A stretch of 37,410 nucleotides of DNA from Desulfobacterales bacterium (lineage in GTDB: Bacteria > Desulfobacterota > Desulfobacteria > Desulfobacterales > SURF-7). A program made the position numbers and the translations under genes. This document shows positions 8,911 to 31,896 of this stretch, piece by piece. The stretch's first letter is position 1; each line of letters begins with the position of its first letter. The stretch is from contig JABHLN010000028.1 of the NCBI GenBank assembly GCA_018693105.1, positions 1-37,410 of the forward strand, given 5' to 3'. The notes beneath the pieces were generated by a model that was given only the letters and a program-made list of their open reading frames with translations, had not been told where the DNA came from and searched no databases.

Positions 8911-9816
8911 TTATATAAACTTCCCTGACCCGATCCATGCCGCTCCGAATACTCCTGCAGAGTCACCGAGGCTGTTTTTTAGTATGGGAGTTCCGACCTT
9001 CTTGTGGAAAGAGTACTTTTGGACATGACTTACGCCTTTTGTGTATAGTTCGTCAATATTTGAAAGCCCGCCTCCAAGTACGACTGCATCAGGATCAAGG
9101 ATAGAAATTAGTCCTCCAAGACAGCGTCCGAAGTCATCAAGGAAACAATTGAATATATCAGTGCATTGGATATTACCTTTTCTGTAACCGGATAATATTT
9201 CTTCCATGGTCAGGCATTTTTCATACTTTGAAAAAAATGCCGATTCCACACCTGAACCGCTGATTTTTGTTTCAACACAACCCTTATTACCGCAATAACA
9301 TTCAGCGCCATTCGGATCTACGGGGAAATGGCCCCATTCTCCCGAAATACTATGACTGCCTCTGCGAAGTTTACCATCAATTGATATCCCGCCACCGCAA
9401 CCTGTGCCCATGCTTATACCAAAGACAAGTCCGAACCCCTTTGCAGAACCTTTTATTGTTTCAGAAAGTGTAAAGCAGTTAGCGTCATTTTCAATTTCAA
9501 CTATCATCCCGAGTTCTTTTTCCAGATCTTTTTTCAACGGCATATTGTTCAGACAAGTTGTGTTTGCATTCTGGACCACCTGTAATTCCTTATTTATTGA
9601 ACCGGGTATACCAACACCGATGGTATATTTACTGCTTTCAGGAACAAGTGGTACCGTATTCTGGACAAGTTCGCTGATTGTTTTAACTATGGCATTATAT
9701 CCGGCCTCTTTCGGTGTTGAGATCCTTTCCCGGTGAATTGTGTTTTCATCCGGAGCAAGAAGAATAATCTCTGTCTTTGTTCCTCCCAAGTCGACACCTA
9801 TATTATAAATGCTCAT
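8911..9816 (-). CDS. ROK-family sugar kinase (glucokinase-like)
   Basis: A 301-residue ROK protein, the usual length for a single-domain kinase of this family. The N-terminal phosphate loop is DLGGTKTE (9-16); the sugar-binding block is GEWGHFPVD, followed by the ROK zinc motif CYCGNKGCVE. The C-terminal block GGGLSNIDELY also fits. ROK kinases phosphorylate glucose, fructose, N-acetylmannosamine or N-acetylglucosamine with ATP in the cytoplasm; the substrate cannot be fixed from sequence. There is no N-terminal HTH, so it is an enzyme and not a ROK repressor. GAGGT precedes the ATG. It is a lone gene with no sugar transporter beside it. Confidence 0.88.
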   Translation of the reverse strand: MSIYNIGVDLGGTKTEIILLAPDENTIHRERISTPKEAGYNAIVKTISELVQNTVPLVPESSKYTIGVGIPGSINKELQVVQNANTTCLNNMPLKKDLEKELGMIVEIENDANCFTLSETIKGSAKGFGLVFGISMGTGCGGGISIDGKLRRGSHSISGEWGHFPVDPNGAECYCGNKGCVETKISGSGVESAFFSKYEKCLTMEEILSGYRKGNIQCTDIFNCFLDDFGRCLGGLISILDPDAVVLGGGLSNIDELYTKGVSHVQKYSFHKKVGTPILKNSLGDSAGVFGAAWIGSGKFI

Positions 9817-9910
9817 TATCTAACCTCTGTAATTTAAAGTTTAAACAATATACGTGCATTTTGCTGATAAATGGTAAATTTCTCGGCTCTAAAGTTCGGG
9901 TTTCAGTTTC

Positions 9911-10012
9911 ATTGGTTTGATTGGTTCGATTAGTTCCATTGGTTAACTAATAGAACCAATCAAACTAATTAAACTAATTAAACTAATCAAACCAGTTTAA
10001 CCAATTTAACTA
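9911..10012. repeat. Inverted array of degenerate 9-bp repeats
   Basis: The left half is a series of 9-mers of the form GTTYRATTR (GTTTGATTG, GTTCGATTA, GTTCCATTG); the right half carries the complementary series AAACTAATY (AAACTAATT, AAACTAATT, AAACTAATC). Together the halves can fold into a long AT-rich hairpin around GGTTAACTAATAGAACC. It lies between a minus-strand kinase and a plus-strand gene, in the divergent promoter region. Confidence 0.7.
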
Positions 10013-10327
10013 CTCTTTTTATGTTGAATAATTCAACACCGGCGTTGTAAAAAGCAACACTTTCCTAACGTTCTAAAATAAAAAGATATAACCGTTATAC
10101 TAACCTTTATAAATTTCTTATTGAATAGGGCTGTAGTTTATTCCGGCAATCTCAATATTCAATAGGCCAATGATCCCTTTTAAGCGTGTCGATAAAAACA
10201 ATTGTAAAAACAGGTAGATATAATTTATTTCACATTTTTTATAAAAACGGCACCGCCATTGCAAAGTATATTGTCAAACATAAACATAATGGCATGATTT
10301 GAAATCAATAAAAAAGGAGATATGAAA

Positions 10328-11215
10328 ATGGCGACAAAAAATGACAGCAAATCTGGCGGTATGGCAAAAGATTTAAACCCTTGTATATGGATGCAGGCAG
10401 GTGTGGCGAAAAAAAAAAGCTGCAATAATTACTATGATTGCACAACCTGTAAATATGATCTCGGAATGAAGAAAAAAGCCGATTCAGGTAAACAGATAAG
10501 CTGGCAGGACGCTATGAGAAAAAGGGAAGGGCTGGACAGGGTGTGCAGACACAGCCTTACAAATCGAATCATGAACAGGGCCTGTGCTTATAATTATCAA
10601 TGCTCTGACTGTGACTTTGATCAGTTCTTTGAAGAGGTCTGGGCTGCCAGAAATGCAGTGACACCTTCTAATATGGATCATATCAAAGGTTTTAACATGC
10701 CAAAAAATTACTGCTTTCATAACGGGCATACCTGGGCAAAAGTTGAGAGTGGTGGATATATCAGAATAGGAATGGATGATTTTGCTCTTAAACTTCTCGG
10801 TAATGCCGATGGCTTTGATCTTCCGTTAATGGGTAAAGAATTAAATTTGGGTGATATTGGATGGGGAATGAAAAGAAAAGACAACCTGGCGGACATCATG
10901 TCACCTGTTGGAGGTGTAATCGTTGAAGTAAATTCTGATGCAAGGGAAAAACCTGCACTTGTAAATCATGAGCCTTATGGAGAAGGGTGGCTGTTTATGG
11001 TACACACCTCCGATATTAAAGGCAGCATTAAGCAGCTGATGGCCGATGACGACAGTAGGGTCTGGATGAATGATGAAGTAAATATTCTCGAAGATATGAT
11101 TGAAGATGTGGCAGGACCGATGGCAACAGACGGTGGTTTATTCAGCGATGATATATACGGAAAGCTTCCGGGTCTTGACTGGGAAAAGCTTACTAAAACA
11201 TTTCTTAAAACCTGA
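10328..11215 (+). CDS. GcvH-like (lipoyl-type) protein with two N-terminal four-cysteine modules
   Basis: A 295-residue protein. Residues 19-41 and 73-95 each carry C-X12-C-X5-C-X2-C, an exact repeat suited to zinc or Fe-S binding (C19/32/38/41 and C73/86/92/95). From about residue 127 it matches the glycine cleavage H protein: NGHTWAKVE, IRIGMDDFALKLLG, then SPVGGVIVEVN and LVNHEPYGEGWLF. In H proteins the lipoyl Lys lies seven residues before SPV; here that place is Asp, with a Lys one residue earlier, so lipoylation is doubtful. An acidic helical tail follows. The ATG at 10328 is eight bases after GGAG; the ATG at 10322 is too close to it. A paralogue follows at 11304. No gcvT or gcvP is nearby, so a glycine cleavage role is unlikely. 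Confidence 0.75.
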   Translation: MATKNDSKSGGMAKDLNPCIWMQAGVAKKKSCNNYYDCTTCKYDLGMKKKADSGKQISWQDAMRKREGLDRVCRHSLTNRIMNRACAYNYQCSDCDFDQFFEEVWAARNAVTPSNMDHIKGFNMPKNYCFHNGHTWAKVESGGYIRIGMDDFALKLLGNADGFDLPLMGKELNLGDIGWGMKRKDNLADIMSPVGGVIVEVNSDAREKPALVNHEPYGEGWLFMVHTSDIKGSIKQLMADDDSRVWMNDEVNILEDMIEDVAGPMATDGGLFSDDIYGKLPGLDWEKLTKTFLKT

Positions 11216-11290
11216 TTAATGGAGCTGTTAAAATCTCCATCTGCTGCGTTATAGCAATTAATAAGAAGTTCGACATACTACATTTATAAT
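11216..11290 (+). repeat. Truncated copy (D) of the 152-bp hairpin repeat
   Basis: Immediately after the stop codon of the first GcvH-like gene, the sequence follows the left half of the repeat: TCTCCATCTGCTGCGTTATAGC, a changed left stem arm, then the loop core TTCGACATACTACAT. It stops there; the right arm and right end are missing. The remaining AT-rich tail runs into the ribosome site of the second gene. Confidence 0.7.
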
Positions 11291-11303
11291 AAGGAGCATA
11301 AAA

Positions 11304-12227
11304 ATGAATCCGAAACATTTAAATGAAAATATATCTGATAATAATAATCCTTGTGTATGGATGCAGGCAAATGTGATTCGGAAAAAAGACTGTTTACTTG
11401 ATTATGAGTGTAGTGGCTGTCGTTTTGATACTGTAATGCGGCGTGTTTCTGGTGAGAACAGGAAATTAAAAGAGCAGGGAAGAATCCCCCGTGGAAAAAG
11501 GGGTGAGATAGTATTCTGGAAAGATAAATTAAGGGAACTGCCTGTCTGGAAACGTCCCTGCACTCATTATTTAATGGGTAGGATTGATTTTAAAGGTTGC
11601 ACCAATGATTACAAGTGTGGGAACTGCGAATTTGATCAGTTTTTTCTTGATCAGTACAGCGTGCATGCCGTTGTCAAACCTGTTGATGTCCTTGATGTAG
11701 AAGGATTTAAAATACCCCAGGGTTTTTATCTTCATAAAGGACATACATGGATCAAGATAGAAAATGGTTCTTCGGTCAGGATAGGTCTTGACGATTTCGC
11801 ACTTCGATTGATGGGGCCTCTTGATGAGGTTGAGGCTCCCCTTGTCGGAAAAGTAATTGAACAGAATCGTGCCGATATAAAAGTAAAACGAGGAAAAAAT
11901 AAAGCAAAAGTTCTTTCTCCTGTCAGCGGGGTTGTAACAGATGTTAATCACAATTTACGTGACACGGGAAACCTTGCAAATCAAGCCCCGTATTCCGATG
12001 GATGGGTATTGCGTGTTCATTCTGATGATCTTCGCCGTGACATTAAGAATTTAATGATAGGTAATGAAACAATAGGTTTTATTGAAAATGAGGTTGACCG
12101 GTTATTTGATATTATTGAAGAAGAGGCTGGCCCTTTAAGTGTAGACGGTGGTTTACTTACGGAAGATATTTCCGGCAGTCTGCCGCAAATCGAATGGTCA
12201 AAACTTGTAGAGCCGTTTCTTGGATAA
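11304..12227 (+). CDS. GcvH-like protein, tandem paralogue of the preceding gene
   Basis: A 307-residue protein with the same layout as the gene at 10328: two C-X12-C-X5-C-X2-C modules (C17/30/36/39 and C86/99/105/108), an H-protein-like domain (KGHTWIKIE, VRIGLDDFALRLMG, SPVSGVVTDVN, ANQAPYSDGWVLRVH) and an acidic C-terminal helix. A basic insert (residues about 50-70) separates the modules. Here a Lys does stand seven residues before SPV, the lipoyl position, within KRGKNKAK. GGAG is seven bases before the ATG. The pair looks like a duplication with divergence; a repeat relic separates the two genes. The role is unknown; a redox or acyl/lipoyl carrier with metal centres fits the visible parts. 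Confidence 0.75.
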   Translation: MNPKHLNENISDNNNPCVWMQANVIRKKDCLLDYECSGCRFDTVMRRVSGENRKLKEQGRIPRGKRGEIVFWKDKLRELPVWKRPCTHYLMGRIDFKGCTNDYKCGNCEFDQFFLDQYSVHAVVKPVDVLDVEGFKIPQGFYLHKGHTWIKIENGSSVRIGLDDFALRLMGPLDEVEAPLVGKVIEQNRADIKVKRGKNKAKVLSPVSGVVTDVNHNLRDTGNLANQAPYSDGWVLRVHSDDLRRDIKNLMIGNETIGFIENEVDRLFDIIEEEAGPLSVDGGLLTEDISGSLPQIEWSKLVEPFLG

Positions 12228-13439: not shown

Positions 13440-13730
13440 CTATTGATGGAGATATTTACTTAATTCACGGTAAAAGTTTTGATGAGATCCAAATGTATAC
13501 AGATATAAGGTGGATTCATCTACTTCATAAGCAAGTAAAATTAGATTGTTATCAAATTTGTATTTATAAACCTGGACTCCTTTCAAATCACCAGATTTTG
13601 CAGTACCAACAGTTGGATCAGCCATTATAGCCTTGATTGCATCATCAAGTTTTTGAATTTGGCCCTTTTTTAGTTTCTTTTTTTGACGGGCAAAGAGCGG
13701 AGACTGAATGACTTCAGTAATCAGACTCAT
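13440..13730 (-). CDS. RelE/ParE-family toxin of a type II toxin-antitoxin pair
   Basis: A 96-residue protein with the RelE/ParE pattern: a basic helical N-terminus (FARQKKKLKKGQIQKLDDAI), ADPTVGTAKSGDLKGVQVYK and a C-terminal beta part (LLAYEVDESTLYLYTFGSHQNFY). RelE-type members cut mRNA at the ribosome and ParE-type members block gyrase; which applies here is not visible. Two ATGs are possible: 13736 overlaps the antitoxin stop as ATGA but has GGAG one base away, while 13730 has GGAG seven bases away and is preferred. It is transcribed after and coupled to the antitoxin. Confidence 0.8.
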   Translation of the reverse strand: MSLITEVIQSPLFARQKKKLKKGQIQKLDDAIKAIMADPTVGTAKSGDLKGVQVYKYKFDNNLILLAYEVDESTLYLYTFGSHQNFYRELSKYLHQ

Positions 13731-13732
13731 GA

Positions 13733-13954
13733 TCATTCTCCAAAAACATATGGAGTACCTTGACCAGATTTAATTTGCTCTTTCCCGATTAAAATATCTT
13801 GAATCATTGGTAGTGGAAGATCAGGGTTGTCTTCTACAATTTGACCAATTTTGGCCCAATACTCTATTTGACCGGCGACTGATCGTTTAAACACTTTTGA
13901 CTTAATTTTTGCTTTTGCAACCAAATCATCCGAAATCTTTACAGCTGTGGGCAT
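13733..13954 (-). CDS. ParD-like antitoxin
   Basis: A 73-residue protein opening MPTAVKISDDLVAKAKIKSK, the ribbon-helix-helix-type start of the ParD-like antitoxin family, with SVAGQIEYWAKIG as the second helix and a proline-rich, likely disordered C-terminus that would wrap the toxin. It should bind the operon promoter and neutralise the toxin encoded directly downstream. AGGAGG is four to five bases before the ATG. Antitoxin-first order and the tight junction with the toxin gene are typical of type II systems. Confidence 0.8.
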   Translation of the reverse strand: MPTAVKISDDLVAKAKIKSKVFKRSVAGQIEYWAKIGQIVEDNPDLPLPMIQDILIGKEQIKSGQGTPYVFGE

Positions 13955-28072: not shown

Positions 28073-28645
28073 TCAGGAACCGCTTATCTTTTTTAATAAC
28101 CTCTTTTTTTCATCATCCAGAAGAATTTTACAATACCTGCAAAGCTGATCTGATTTTTGATCAACATCTTTTATACTTCTGCAATAGTGCATAATGCATG
28201 AAGGGTCCTTGCAATGTAGGAGCTTAAAGGTGTGACCCAACTCGTGGATTGCTTCTTTTATTACCCTGGAATAAAAAATATCCTTTGAAGTTTCTGCCGA
28301 TAAGTCTTTTGTCAGTCTGCAGGTTGAAATTATGCAGGATGTTCCTCCAAGCTGTGCTTCACCGTATACAAATGTCAGAATAGGAATGAAAAGGTCGATG
28401 TCGGTAATTGCAAGAATTCTTGATGTATCAGGAGTGGCTTTTAAAGCAAGTTTTTCAAGAATTGGGGTTGAATAGTATTGTTCGCGTTTTGTATCAAAAG
28501 CAAAATCCACATTATTAACAAGTTTTTTTCTTTCAACAGGGAAACCGAATAATCTTTTAACCTCTTTGCCGATTGTATCAAGCAAATCAGTATCATGATC
28601 ACCCATGGGGGAAATAATAATTTTATGTTCTATTGTATCATTCAA
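28073..28645 (-). CDS. amzA: Archaemetzincin-type zinc metalloprotease
   Basis: About 190 residues. The zinc site is HELGHTFKLLHC (134-145), followed by C150, M152 and C169xxC172, which matches the archaemetzincin pattern HEXXHXXG-X3-C-X4-C-X-M with a second structural zinc. Lys141 replaces the usual Gly of the third motif position, while His144 remains. The family is an aminopeptidase-like metalloprotease group of unclear substrate. The only in-frame start before the first conserved strand (KIIISPMGD) is TTG at 28645 with no Shine-Dalgarno; an in-frame stop lies three codons upstream, inside a mobile repeat (copy C). Expression may therefore be altered. Confidence 0.8.
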   Translation of the reverse strand: MNDTIEHKIIISPMGDHDTDLLDTIGKEVKRLFGFPVERKKLVNNVDFAFDTKREQYYSTPILEKLALKATPDTSRILAITDIDLFIPILTFVYGEAQLGGTSCIISTCRLTKDLSAETSKDIFYSRVIKEAIHELGHTFKLLHCKDPSCIMHYCRSIKDVDQKSDQLCRYCKILLDDEKKRLLKKISGS

Positions 28646-28649
28646 CTTT

Positions 28650-28801
28650 GATTAACTCGTAGAAAGTATCACCGATGGCTAAGTAAAAATCTTCATATAC
28701 AAGACATAGCGTTTGGCCAGGCGTGAAGGCATACATGTAGTATGTCGAACGTCTGGCCAAACGCTATAACGCAGTAGATGGAGACTTTTTACGACGCCAT
28801 C
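28650..28801 (-). repeat. 152-bp mobile hairpin repeat, copy C
   Basis: Reverse orientation relative to copies A and B. Ends are GATTAACTCGTAGAAAGT (left) and, inverted, GATGGCGTCGTAAAAAGT (right); flanking direct repeats are AACTTT (28644-28649 and 28802-28807). Stem arms 28707-28723 and 28750-28766 pair at 16 of 17 plus one G-T wobble. The 26-base loop is identical to that of copy B, but the stem (TAGCGTTTGGCCAGACG) differs from copy A at four positions, all compensated in the other arm. Confidence 0.9.
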
Positions 28802-28832
28802 AACTTTCGTATTCACTGAATTGGTAAAGTCG

Positions 28833-28879
28833 GTTAACTAGTGCCCATCCAGAAATGGTTTTTTTGGATGGACATTAAC
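28833..28879. terminator. Imperfect inverted repeat downstream of the NtrC-type regulator
   Basis: GTTAACTAGTGCCCATCC and GGATGGACATTAAC pair (core CCATCC/GGATGG) around a T-rich loop, about 90 bases 3' of the response regulator gene on the minus strand. It probably acts at the end of that operon; no uridine tract is adjacent. Confidence 0.35.
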
Positions 28880-28970
28880 TACTATTCTTAAATTAAGCAG
28901 CTTTGGAGCAATTTCAGAGTTTATTCCCGTATTTTACGGAAAGGACCGCTAATAGAAAAATAAAGTTGAG

Positions 28971-30320
28971 CTAAACCCCATCCTGTTTTTTTATGTTATA
29001 AAGTTTTATCTTTTTGTAAAGTGTTGAGCGGTCAACGCCTAATGCCTTGGCGCTTCTGGAAATATTCCACGAGCATTTATCAAGTATCTGAACGATATGT
29101 AACTTTTCCATTCCCTTGAGCGAGTCATCTGATGTGGGAACCGAATATTCAGGGCTAAAAATAGGCAGATTTTCAGGTTGAAGTGATCTTTCTTTTCCAA
29201 CAACCACAGCTCTTTCAATAGAATTTTCAAGCTCTCTTATATTGCCGGGCCATTCGTACAGCATTAATTCATCCATGGCCATACGGCTGATTCGATCTAT
29301 CGGTTTGTTTATTTCCTGAACAAAACGGCTTAGAAAGTGTTCTGCAAGAAGCGGAACATCTTCCTTGCGCTCACGCAGCGGAGGCATAGTAAAGGATATT
29401 ACGTTCAGGCGGTAAAATAAATCTTCGCGGAAAGCTCCATTACTAATTGCTTCATCGAGGTCCCTGTTTGTTGCTGCAATAACACGAAAATCGGCTTCTA
29501 TAGGCTGCGTGCCGCCGACACGGTAAAAAACACGGTCTTCAAGAACACGCAAAAGATCAATCTGCATTCTCATGCTAATTTCACCTATTTCATCAAGAAA
29601 GAGCGTACCCCTGTGAGCCAGTTCAAGCCGTCCCTTTTTTGTTTCCTTGGCATCAGTGAATGCACCTTTCTGATATCCGAAAAGTTCGCTTTCCATAAGA
29701 TGTTCAGGAATAGCACCGCAGTTAACCGTGACAAACGGACCGGCGCTTCTTGGGCTTTTTGTGTGCAGTGCTTTTGCAGCAAGGCCTTTGCCGGTACCTG
29801 TCTCACCGGTTATAAGAACAGTGGAATCAACAGGGCCGACATCCTCAATGAGATCGAATATACTCTGCATGGCCCCTGACTGGCCGATCATACTTTCAAA
29901 CCTTGTTCTTTCCCTGAACTCTTCCTTAAGGAATATATTTTCCCGTACATGTTTTTTGTAATCTATGATTTTTTCTATAAGAACTCCCAGATCATCTGGA
30001 TCAAACGGTTTAAGGAGGTAATCATATGCCCCTTTCTTTATCGCTTCAATTGCTGAAGTTATTGAGCCGTAAGCTGTAATCATAACTATAGTTATATCGG
30101 AATCATCTTTTTTAACTATGCCGAGGAGTTCAAGGCCGCTCATGCCTTCCATCTTTATGTCGAGAAGCATGATATCAAATTTAACGTTCTTTAATTTCTC
30201 AAGTGCTTCCTCACCGCTTACAGCCATTTCCACATAATGACCGTCACGTTCAAGCCAAGCCGCAAGTGATTCCCGTATAATAAGCTCATCATCGACAATA
30301 AGGATCTTTGTACTGTTCAT
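28971..30320 (-). CDS. NtrC-type sigma-54-dependent response regulator
   Basis: A 449-residue three-domain regulator. Receiver: D10/D11, phospho-acceptor D54 (LLDIKM), T82, K104. AAA+: Walker A GETGTGKG (172-179), Walker B LFLDEIGE (240-247). Fis-type HTH near the end (ISRSAKALGVDRSTLYKKI). The sigma-54 contact loop reads GAFTDA (219-224) in place of GAFTGA. GGGGAGG is close before the ATG. It lies 13 bases after the histidine kinase gene at 30334, so the two form a two-component operon. Targets are not apparent nearby. Confidence 0.88.
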   Translation of the reverse strand: MNSTKILIVDDELIIRESLAAWLERDGHYVEMAVSGEEALEKLKNVKFDIMLLDIKMEGMSGLELLGIVKKDDSDITIVMITAYGSITSAIEAIKKGAYDYLLKPFDPDDLGVLIEKIIDYKKHVRENIFLKEEFRERTRFESMIGQSGAMQSIFDLIEDVGPVDSTVLITGETGTGKGLAAKALHTKSPRSAGPFVTVNCGAIPEHLMESELFGYQKGAFTDAKETKKGRLELAHRGTLFLDEIGEISMRMQIDLLRVLEDRVFYRVGGTQPIEADFRVIAATNRDLDEAISNGAFREDLFYRLNVISFTMPPLRERKEDVPLLAEHFLSRFVQEINKPIDRISRMAMDELMLYEWPGNIRELENSIERAVVVGKERSLQPENLPIFSPEYSVPTSDDSLKGMEKLHIVQILDKCSWNISRSAKALGVDRSTLYKKIKLYNIKKQDGV

Positions 30321-30333
30321 TAATGCCTCCCCA

Positions 30334-31896
30334 TTAACTTAAATTTTTCAAGACTTTCTCATTTCCTATCAGGTGAAACCTGATATAAAATATGGTCCCT
30401 TTACCAGGGGACGAATTAACGTTTATTGAACCGCCGTGTTCCTTAATAATTCCATATGCAACTGAAAGACCGAGTCCAACGCCCTTTCCCTTTTTTTTTG
30501 TAGTAAAAAACGGTTCAAATAGTTTTGAAAAATTTTCCTCCTCTATTCCTGTACCGGAATCTTCAATAATTATTTCAATATATTTTTCTTTTTCAGAATA
30601 TGTTGTTTCAATTATCAGGTCACCACCTTCGCTTGATGACATACTTTCAACCGCATTGGAAATAAAATTCATCAAAACCTGATGCAGCTGGTCCTCTGAT
30701 CCTATGAACCCCGGCAGATCCGGTTGTAGTTTTGTTTTTGCCTTGACCCCGTTTATTTTTAAAAGATTTGAGTTAAGCATGAGAACCTGCTCAATCAGCA
30801 TATTAAGATTAAGACTCTTAAGTTCCATTTTAGATTGCCTTGAAAAAGTCAGAAGGTTTGAGACAATCCTGCTGATGCGTCGTGTTTCAGATTCAACAAG
30901 ACCTACATATTTCTGAAACTTTTTTATTTCCGCATTACTTTCAATATCTTCTTCGATGATTCGGTTCATTAGCATAGTCAGGTTTAGTACACCTGCAAGC
31001 GGGTTATTAATTTCATGAACTACAGATGCTGCAAGTTTTCCCAGGGAAGCCATTTTATCCTGATGTAAAAGTTTGTCATGGGTTTCTTTAAGTTCACCTG
31101 TACGTTCTTCCACCATCAATTCGAGACGACGTGTTATTTCTTCAGATTTGATTTTTTTCTCTGTTATATCACGACTAACTTCAATAAATTTGGATATTTT
31201 CCCGTTTTTTTCCCATACAGGAAATGTTGAAAGTTCTACATATCGTGTTTTTCCTTTTTTACTTACACGTGTCAGTGTTTGGCGGTGAGGCCTTTTATTT
31301 TTTATTACCTCGCTTAGAGGGCAGATCATGCCATTGTCAAAAATGCAGTCTGTGTCTGAATTCTGGAAAATCTTGTGACATTTTTTCCCGATAACCTCTT
31401 CAGGAGAATAGTCCATTTTCTCAAGAAAAGAGATGTTTGCTTCTATGATTTCCTTTTCAGGGTTAATAACAATTATGAAATCGTCAATGCCGTTTAAAAT
31501 AGTCTCAACTTCAAAGTTCCTTTTTTTCAGTTTCTGCTCATCGACTGCAATGGCTTTCCATATGAATTCAAACGATTGATATGACAAGAGTCTGATATTA
31601 TTTGGTTTAGTTTTTAATATGTCTTCAAGTATGCTAACTTCGGGGGATAGAATTGCAATCAGGTCAATTTCATATTCTTTTTTATATAGTTTATGATAGT
31701 TATCAACTGTTACAAGACCGATTTTTTTTGCAAATGTAATTCCGGGAGAGTTCGGGTCAGGGTCTGCAACTGCAGATATCCTTGCATGAACCTCACTTTT
31801 TTTGTAGTCGCTGAAACTTTTTTCAAGAAGTTCCCTGCAGTAAGTCCCACCGCCGACAATGGCAATATTTATGAATGGTGAATTCATATTCTGCAT
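30334..31896 (-). CDS. Sensor histidine kinase with N-terminal Rossmann-like domain and PAS domain
   Basis: A 520-residue soluble kinase. Residues 10-120 look like an NAD(P)-binding Rossmann domain of the oxidoreductase type (NIAIVGGGTYCRELLE; ISAVADPDPNSPGI). The PAS domain is at about 130-250 with cysteines C173, C184 and C192 (CHKIF, DCIF, ICPL), which might bind metal or heme or sense redox. A coiled linker is followed by HisKA with H294 (VVHEINNPLAG) and HATPase (EDSGTGI, GKGVGLGLS). There are no transmembrane segments, so it should sense a cytoplasmic signal, perhaps the NAD(H) state or a dinucleotide-linked metabolite. AGGA precedes the ATG. Its partner is the NtrC-type regulator directly downstream. 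Confidence 0.85.
   Translation of the reverse strand: MQNMNSPFINIAIVGGGTYCRELLEKSFSDYKKSEVHARISAVADPDPNSPGITFAKKIGLVTVDNYHKLYKKEYEIDLIAILSPEVSILEDILKTKPNNIRLLSYQSFEFIWKAIAVDEQKLKKRNFEVETILNGIDDFIIVINPEKEIIEANISFLEKMDYSPEEVIGKKCHKIFQNSDTDCIFDNGMICPLSEVIKNKRPHRQTLTRVSKKGKTRYVELSTFPVWEKNGKISKFIEVSRDITEKKIKSEEITRRLELMVEERTGELKETHDKLLHQDKMASLGKLAASVVHEINNPLAGVLNLTMLMNRIIEEDIESNAEIKKFQKYVGLVESETRRISRIVSNLLTFSRQSKMELKSLNLNMLIEQVLMLNSNLLKINGVKAKTKLQPDLPGFIGSEDQLHQVLMNFISNAVESMSSSEGGDLIIETTYSEKEKYIEIIIEDSGTGIEEENFSKLFEPFFTTKKKGKGVGLGLSVAYGIIKEHGGSINVNSSPGKGTIFYIRFHLIGNEKVLKNLS

Follow-up and report, generated by a model that had tools for sequence, protein, structure and literature searches.

Two neighbouring genes on the plus strand of a 37,410-nucleotide stretch of Desulfobacterales DNA (the window) encode paired H-protein-like proteins, P1 and P2, that carry two four-cysteine modules each and probably no lipoate. 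The reading that we favour, to which we give about an even chance, is that P1 and P2 are sigma-54-induced, lipoate-free, metal-binding accessory subunits with an H fold that belong to Hdr-type electron-transfer complexes. The features on which this reading draws are listed in Table 1.

Table 1. Features of the window assigned to P1-P2 and to the associated cassette.
Feature	Position	Strand	Basis or remark
Predicted sigma-54 (-24/-12) promoter of P1-P2, ACGGCACCGCCATTGCA	10247-10263	+	exact GGCAC-N5-TTGC at 10249-10262
P1: double four-Cys module and GCV_H-like domain, Asp at lipoyl site	10328-11215	+	
P1 Cys module 1	10382-10450	+	sequence
P1 Cys module 2	10544-10612	+	sequence
P1 GCV_H-like domain	10715-11059	+	PF01597 match
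P2: P1 paralogue, Lys at lipoyl site (non-conserved among orthologues)	11304-12227	+	
P2 Cys module 1	11352-11420	+	sequence
P2 Cys module 2	11559-11627	+	sequence
P2 GCV_H-like domain	11730-12080	+	PF01597 match
M54 archaemetzincin-type metallopeptidase	28073-28645	-	PF07998, E 5.7e-22; HELGH...HC motif HELGHTFKLLHC; nearest relatives adjoin P1-P2 orthologues
Sigma-54 response regulator, associated cassette	28971-30320	-	70-73% identity to regulators beside P1-P2 pairs (L002, L046, L048, L050, L051)
PAS histidine kinase with Rossmann-like N-terminal domain	30334-31896	-	HisKA/HATPase/PAS; orthology

In the open reading frame listing of the window, P1 can start at an ATG at 10322 (frame 10322-11215) or at a second in-frame ATG at 10328; we prefer the latter because it is better placed behind an AAGGAG ribosome-binding site. 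Both proteins contain two modules with the exact spacing C-x12-C-x5-C-x2-C ahead of a GCV_H-like domain. The modules hold 16 cysteines over the pair, and P1 has one extra cysteine outside them. The domains match PF01597 above the Pfam cut-off (E 3.6e-20 for P1 and 1.9e-21 for P2), and both proteins have a conserved C-terminal tail. An earlier sequence-only reading of this DNA had described two identically spaced modules per protein, 16 cysteines and a GcvH-type domain, and both reading frames match that description. In relatives, the spacing is exact in 111 of 114 modules (the other three have x13), and all eight module cysteines are invariant in an alignment of 17 diverse sequences. Thus, the spacing is a family trait and not chance. 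Module 1 follows roughly the pattern C-x-W-M-x-A-G-V-x3-K-x-C-x5-C-x2-C-x-[FY]-D, and module 2 roughly C-x-H-x10-C-x5-C-x2-C-x-F-D-Q. A profile of the modules found no recognisable solved relative in the PDB; its single hit, to cofilin (E 0.08), is attributable to chance. Structures predicted with eight sequences had mean pLDDT values of 54 for P1 and 50 for P2, with the modules below 50, and display no metal site because they are too poor over most of the cysteine region (pLDDT <50). The invariant modules look metal-binding and may hold Zn or an Fe-S cluster.

H-proteins are the lipoate carriers of glycine breakdown. When 86 family domains were aligned with two canonical H-proteins, Asp fell at the lipoyl position of P1 and Lys at that of P2, as had been noted from the sequence. 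In the 86 domains this column holds G in 31, D in 16, E in 14, S in 9 and K in 6, and an Arg lies two residues upstream in 73. The P2 lysine thus appears incidental, being rare in the family and replaced by Ser in two orthologues (L001 and L003). The host assembly (3.24 Mb, 91.8% complete) has no match to LipA, an LplA/LipB-type ligase (PF21948), GcvP or canonical GcvH, with positive controls detected; the search for lipoylation genes covered LipA and the ligase. LipS1/S2 are lipoate synthases (PMC10332631). LipA above the cut-off is also missing in 18 of the 58 other genomes with the family. The GCV_H-like domain of the family is therefore very probably not lipoylated and, given the variability of the P2 lysine and the lack of LipA and ligase matches in the assembly, probably neither P1 nor P2 is. 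For these same reasons we rejected the suggestion, made in the sequence-only reading, of one lipoylated and one non-lipoylated partner. If P2 were a lipoylated carrier of the LbpA or GcvH kind, with P1 as its inactive partner, the Lys at the aligned position would be accounted for, and there is a precedent in LbpA, a lipoylated H-like protein that an Hdr-like pathway cannot do without (PMC6067878); but the change to Ser in two P2 orthologues, the presence of Lys in so few members and the missing LipA and ligase make this very improbable.

No glycine cleavage genes lie near P1-P2 and no GcvP (PF02347) match occurs anywhere in the host assembly, which bears out and extends the earlier remark that such genes are not nearby. 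GcvP above the cut-off is found in only 20 of the 58 other genomes with the family and not in 38; where it is present, gcvP lies on a contig other than that of the family gene or about 21 kb or more away from it, so the consistent adjacency in relatives that would have spoken against the sequence-only reading was not seen. The lack of LipA and GcvP in many relatives and the distance of GcvP in the others indicate that the family is independent of glycine cleavage. A role in glycine cleavage was rejected because the genome has neither GcvP nor canonical GcvH and the genes are not adjacent in relatives. P1 and P2 share with GcvH (PF01597, TIGR00527) the fold family, a domain of approximately 115 residues and the conserved H-x-W, G, P, G and PY-x-x-GW motifs, but they have no conserved lipoyl-lysine, carry the cysteine modules and C-terminal tail in addition, and come from a host without GcvP. 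They score 78.9 (P1) and 72.9 bits (P2) against the TIGR00527 GcvH equivalog, whose cut-off of 115.85 is not reached. Two named families of GcvH-related proteins outside glycine cleavage were also tried and rejected: NF045810 (GcvH_rel_desulf; 33.4 bits for P1 and 27.8 for P2, far below the cut-off of 150) and TIGR03077 (not_gcvH; 37 and 46 bits, far below 144).

A family search for the cysteine module combined with a GCV_H domain, which had been proposed along with the sequence-only reading, covered 395 genomes of the phylum Desulfobacterota. Full-length proteins of this kind, here called Cys-H, occur in 59 of them, in addition to many shorter relatives, and the host has a third copy on another contig (C88). 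In the phylogenetic tree, P1 forms a clade with support of 0.995, P2 one with only 0.25, and the two together one with 0.997; P1 and P2 are adjacent in 12 sampled genomes. The two clades and this adjacency suggest an old paralogue pair that has been kept together. Variants carry four modules in a single protein (L061, L068), one or no module, an N-terminal membrane helix, or fusions to other domains. The Cys-H family appears to be undescribed: we found no description in the open literature, most subscription papers lying outside the search. Of the earlier proposal of a metal-binding, lipoyl-like carrier pair in sulfate-reducer-like bacteria, the pairing, the undescribed H-like family and the metal-binding look of the invariant modules stand and the lipoyl carrier does not.

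The promoter motif upstream of P1 points to sigma-54 control. With both strands of the window counted, GGCAC-N5-TTGC occurs once (0.18 expected), and this copy precedes P1 by about 60 nt. With a scoring scheme built on the general sigma-54 consensus and not on a cited table, we found a -24/-12 site within 250 nt upstream of 20 of 43 family genes versus 10 of 435 other genes (p 1.7e-16). Of the 23 family genes without a site, 11 come second in a P1-P2 pair. Further upstream, between a ROK-like kinase gene (8911-9816) and P1, lies an AT-rich stretch (9905-10011) with direct repeats spaced by 9 nt and imperfect inverted repeats of 31-40 nt, which may act as a terminator, bind a regulator or represent a small repeat element.

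A survey of gene neighbours, likewise proposed earlier, showed that a kinase, a sigma-54 regulator, an M54 peptidase and HdrA/HdrL recur beside the family in relatives. At 36 loci that were picked from the best matches and are not a random sample, a sigma-54 regulator lies within 8 kb of module-bearing genes in 28, a PAS kinase in 28, an M54 gene in 24 and HdrA/HdrL in 24; a "FlpD-fus" label was disregarded in these counts because it mostly reflects the shared H domain. M54 is present in 57 of 59 Cys-H genomes versus 89 of 336 others (Fisher p 4.6e-26, a value that is only indicative because genomes are not independent), and at least 45 of the 86 Cys-H genes are within 6 kb of an M54 gene. The recurring electron-bifurcation neighbours are HdrA/HdrL-MvhD-HdrBC genes. 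In L078 and L058, Cys-H is co-directional with hdrC, hdrB and hdrL, and the kinase, regulator and M54 genes are divergent. On host contig C88, the third Cys-H gene adjoins an M54-regulator-kinase set opposite a gene for a 1345-aa HdrL-like protein. The window has an orthologous set on the minus strand (28073-31896), at a distance of 16 kb from P1-P2, and hdr genes are absent from all of its 37,410 nt. The M54 protein of the set has both the PF07998 match and the HExxH...HC archaemetzincin motif, and the best matches of the set are the sets beside P1-P2 pairs at five loci (L002, L046, L048, L050 and L051). Another sigma-54 activator-like gene, which has a PAS-like region and differs in type from that of the cassette, is located 2.1 kb upstream of P1 (6338-8185, minus strand).

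Fusions of the family's GCV_H-like domain occur with HdrA-like proteins in L061 and L068 and with an FlpD-molybdopterin-binding-domain protein in L065, with similar proteins in L060 and L063. In L081, a HoxU-like subunit carries the domain, and NuoE- and NuoF-like and indolepyruvate-oxidoreductase-like genes lie next to it; this gene set is shared by L082-L084. Membrane-anchored H-like versions adjoin NrfD and Fe-S subunits in L089, with a like layout in L087 and L092. Receiver (REC) domains are fused to a double cysteine module without an H domain in L085 (9432-10190, minus strand) and L086 (5718-6497, plus strand), where these genes sit beside a kinase and a sigma-54 regulator. As separate observations, the HoxU-like [2Fe-2S]/[4Fe-4S] subunit of L081-L084 and L091 carries a cysteine module as well as the H-like domain beside NuoE/NuoF-like genes, and the layout in L081-L084, with its indolepyruvate-oxidoreductase-like neighbour, is that of an unusual NADH-linked oxidoreductase; in L087, L089 and L092, genes for a 4Fe-4S protein, for NrfD, for an H-like protein with a membrane anchor and for more H-like proteins form an operon-like series, next to M54 and a sigma-54 regulator.

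The nearest functional analogue is LbpA of the sHdr sulfur-oxidation pathway, an H-protein-like protein that is encoded with Hdr-like genes and serves an Hdr-like complex. In LbpA the Lys that carries lipoate is strictly conserved, and two types, LbpA1 and LbpA2, are found together in some genomes (PMC6067878). LbpA has this Lys, two lone conserved cysteines and its own ligase, whereas the P1/P2 family has lost the Lys and carries four-cysteine modules, in a host without matches to LipA or LplA/LipB. In the P1/P2 family, linkage to Hdr genes is seen at 24 of the 36 relative loci and for the host paralogue on C88, but P1-P2 themselves lack it. Desulfobacterium autotrophicum is the species in which HdrL was defined (PMC2702500), and HdrA/glutamate-synthase-type fusions and MvhD partners of the same type as in its HdrL/HdrA-MvhD loci lie beside P1/P2 relatives. 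We found no mention of glycine cleavage or lipoate in the text of that paper; H-like proteins are thus not described there under those terms. In-frame TGA codons occur in HdrA-like frames of host (G000) contig C88 (10726-11022 and 15999-16289) and of L050 (4579-4824), consistent with selenocysteine as reported for D. autotrophicum HdrA/HdrL (PMC2702500).

Under the reading that we favour, P1 and P2 would be a co-inherited pair accessory to HdrA/HdrL-MvhD-type electron-bifurcating complexes. The H fold would retain the beta structure and, probably, the docking function, and would have lost the lipoyl-lysine. The two modules of each protein would hold metal, either as a structural docking arm or as an electron or thiol relay in place of the lipoyl arm. 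The sigma-54 promoter would be turned on by the dedicated pair of histidine kinase and NtrC-type regulator, with the M54 metallopeptidase as part of the control. The kinase possibly senses NAD(P)(H) through its Rossmann-like domain, which is a guess because the similarity of its N-terminus to Gfo/Idh/MocA Rossmann domains is weak (E 3.6e-4). What we read from sequence comparison is the invariance of the modules, the loss of the lysine, the missing lipoylation and glycine cleavage genes in the assembly, the promoter motif, the neighbourhoods of relatives and the fusions; we infer that the proteins bind metal and make direct contact with Hdr, and likewise what the signal is and what the peptidase does. 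Counting against an Hdr subunit are the lack of hdr genes near P1-P2 in the window, the position of the kinase, regulator and M54 genes 16 kb off on the other strand, the NrfD/Fe-S or NuoEF-Ior-like genes that some relatives have in place of Hdr, and the REC domains joined to the cysteine pair, which point to a signalling role.

Such a role is the core of the main rival, in which P1 and P2 are regulatory adaptors whose modules bind metal or sense redox or thiol state. They would act on the kinase-regulator-M54 cassette, which then controls Hdr-type operons, and might for instance inhibit it, scaffold it or be a substrate for proteolysis. The M54-regulator-kinase neighbours are at least as constant as Hdr, M54 co-occurs with the family, the REC fusions are direct and the contig of the window has the cassette without hdr genes, all of which suit an adaptor. 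We nevertheless consider it unlikely, given that, by the promoter motif, it is the Cys-H genes themselves that are regulated, that the fusion partners of the H domain are electron-transfer subunits and not kinases or regulators, and that Cys-H shares its direction with hdrCB-hdrL in L078 and L058. The same fusion partners argue against a supply of zinc or another metal to the M54 protease or to Fe-S enzymes with the H fold as scaffold only. Invariant modules and tight linkage to a metallopeptidase would fit that function, but no recurring metal-dependent regulator was seen in the neighbourhoods and we regard it as improbable. More tentatively than an Hdr subunit, we propose a general electron-transfer adaptor that evolved from an H-protein, dropped lipoate, recruited four-cysteine metal modules and serves unrelated HdrA, FlpD/MvhD, HoxU-NuoEF-Ior-like and NrfD-Fe-S machines under its own sigma-54, kinase and archaemetzincin control.

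If P1 and P2 are lipoate-free H-fold subunits of this kind, a large lineage of H-proteins that is paired and fused to electron-transfer subunits would broaden the role of the H fold. The energy metabolism of sulfate-reducing bacteria and their relatives would gain a name for a part that has so far lacked an explanation, and the bacterial archaemetzincins linked to the family would be placed in a physiological setting. Elsewhere in the window, a 98-aa reading frame (13440-13736, minus strand) resembles a RelE/YafQ-type toxin.
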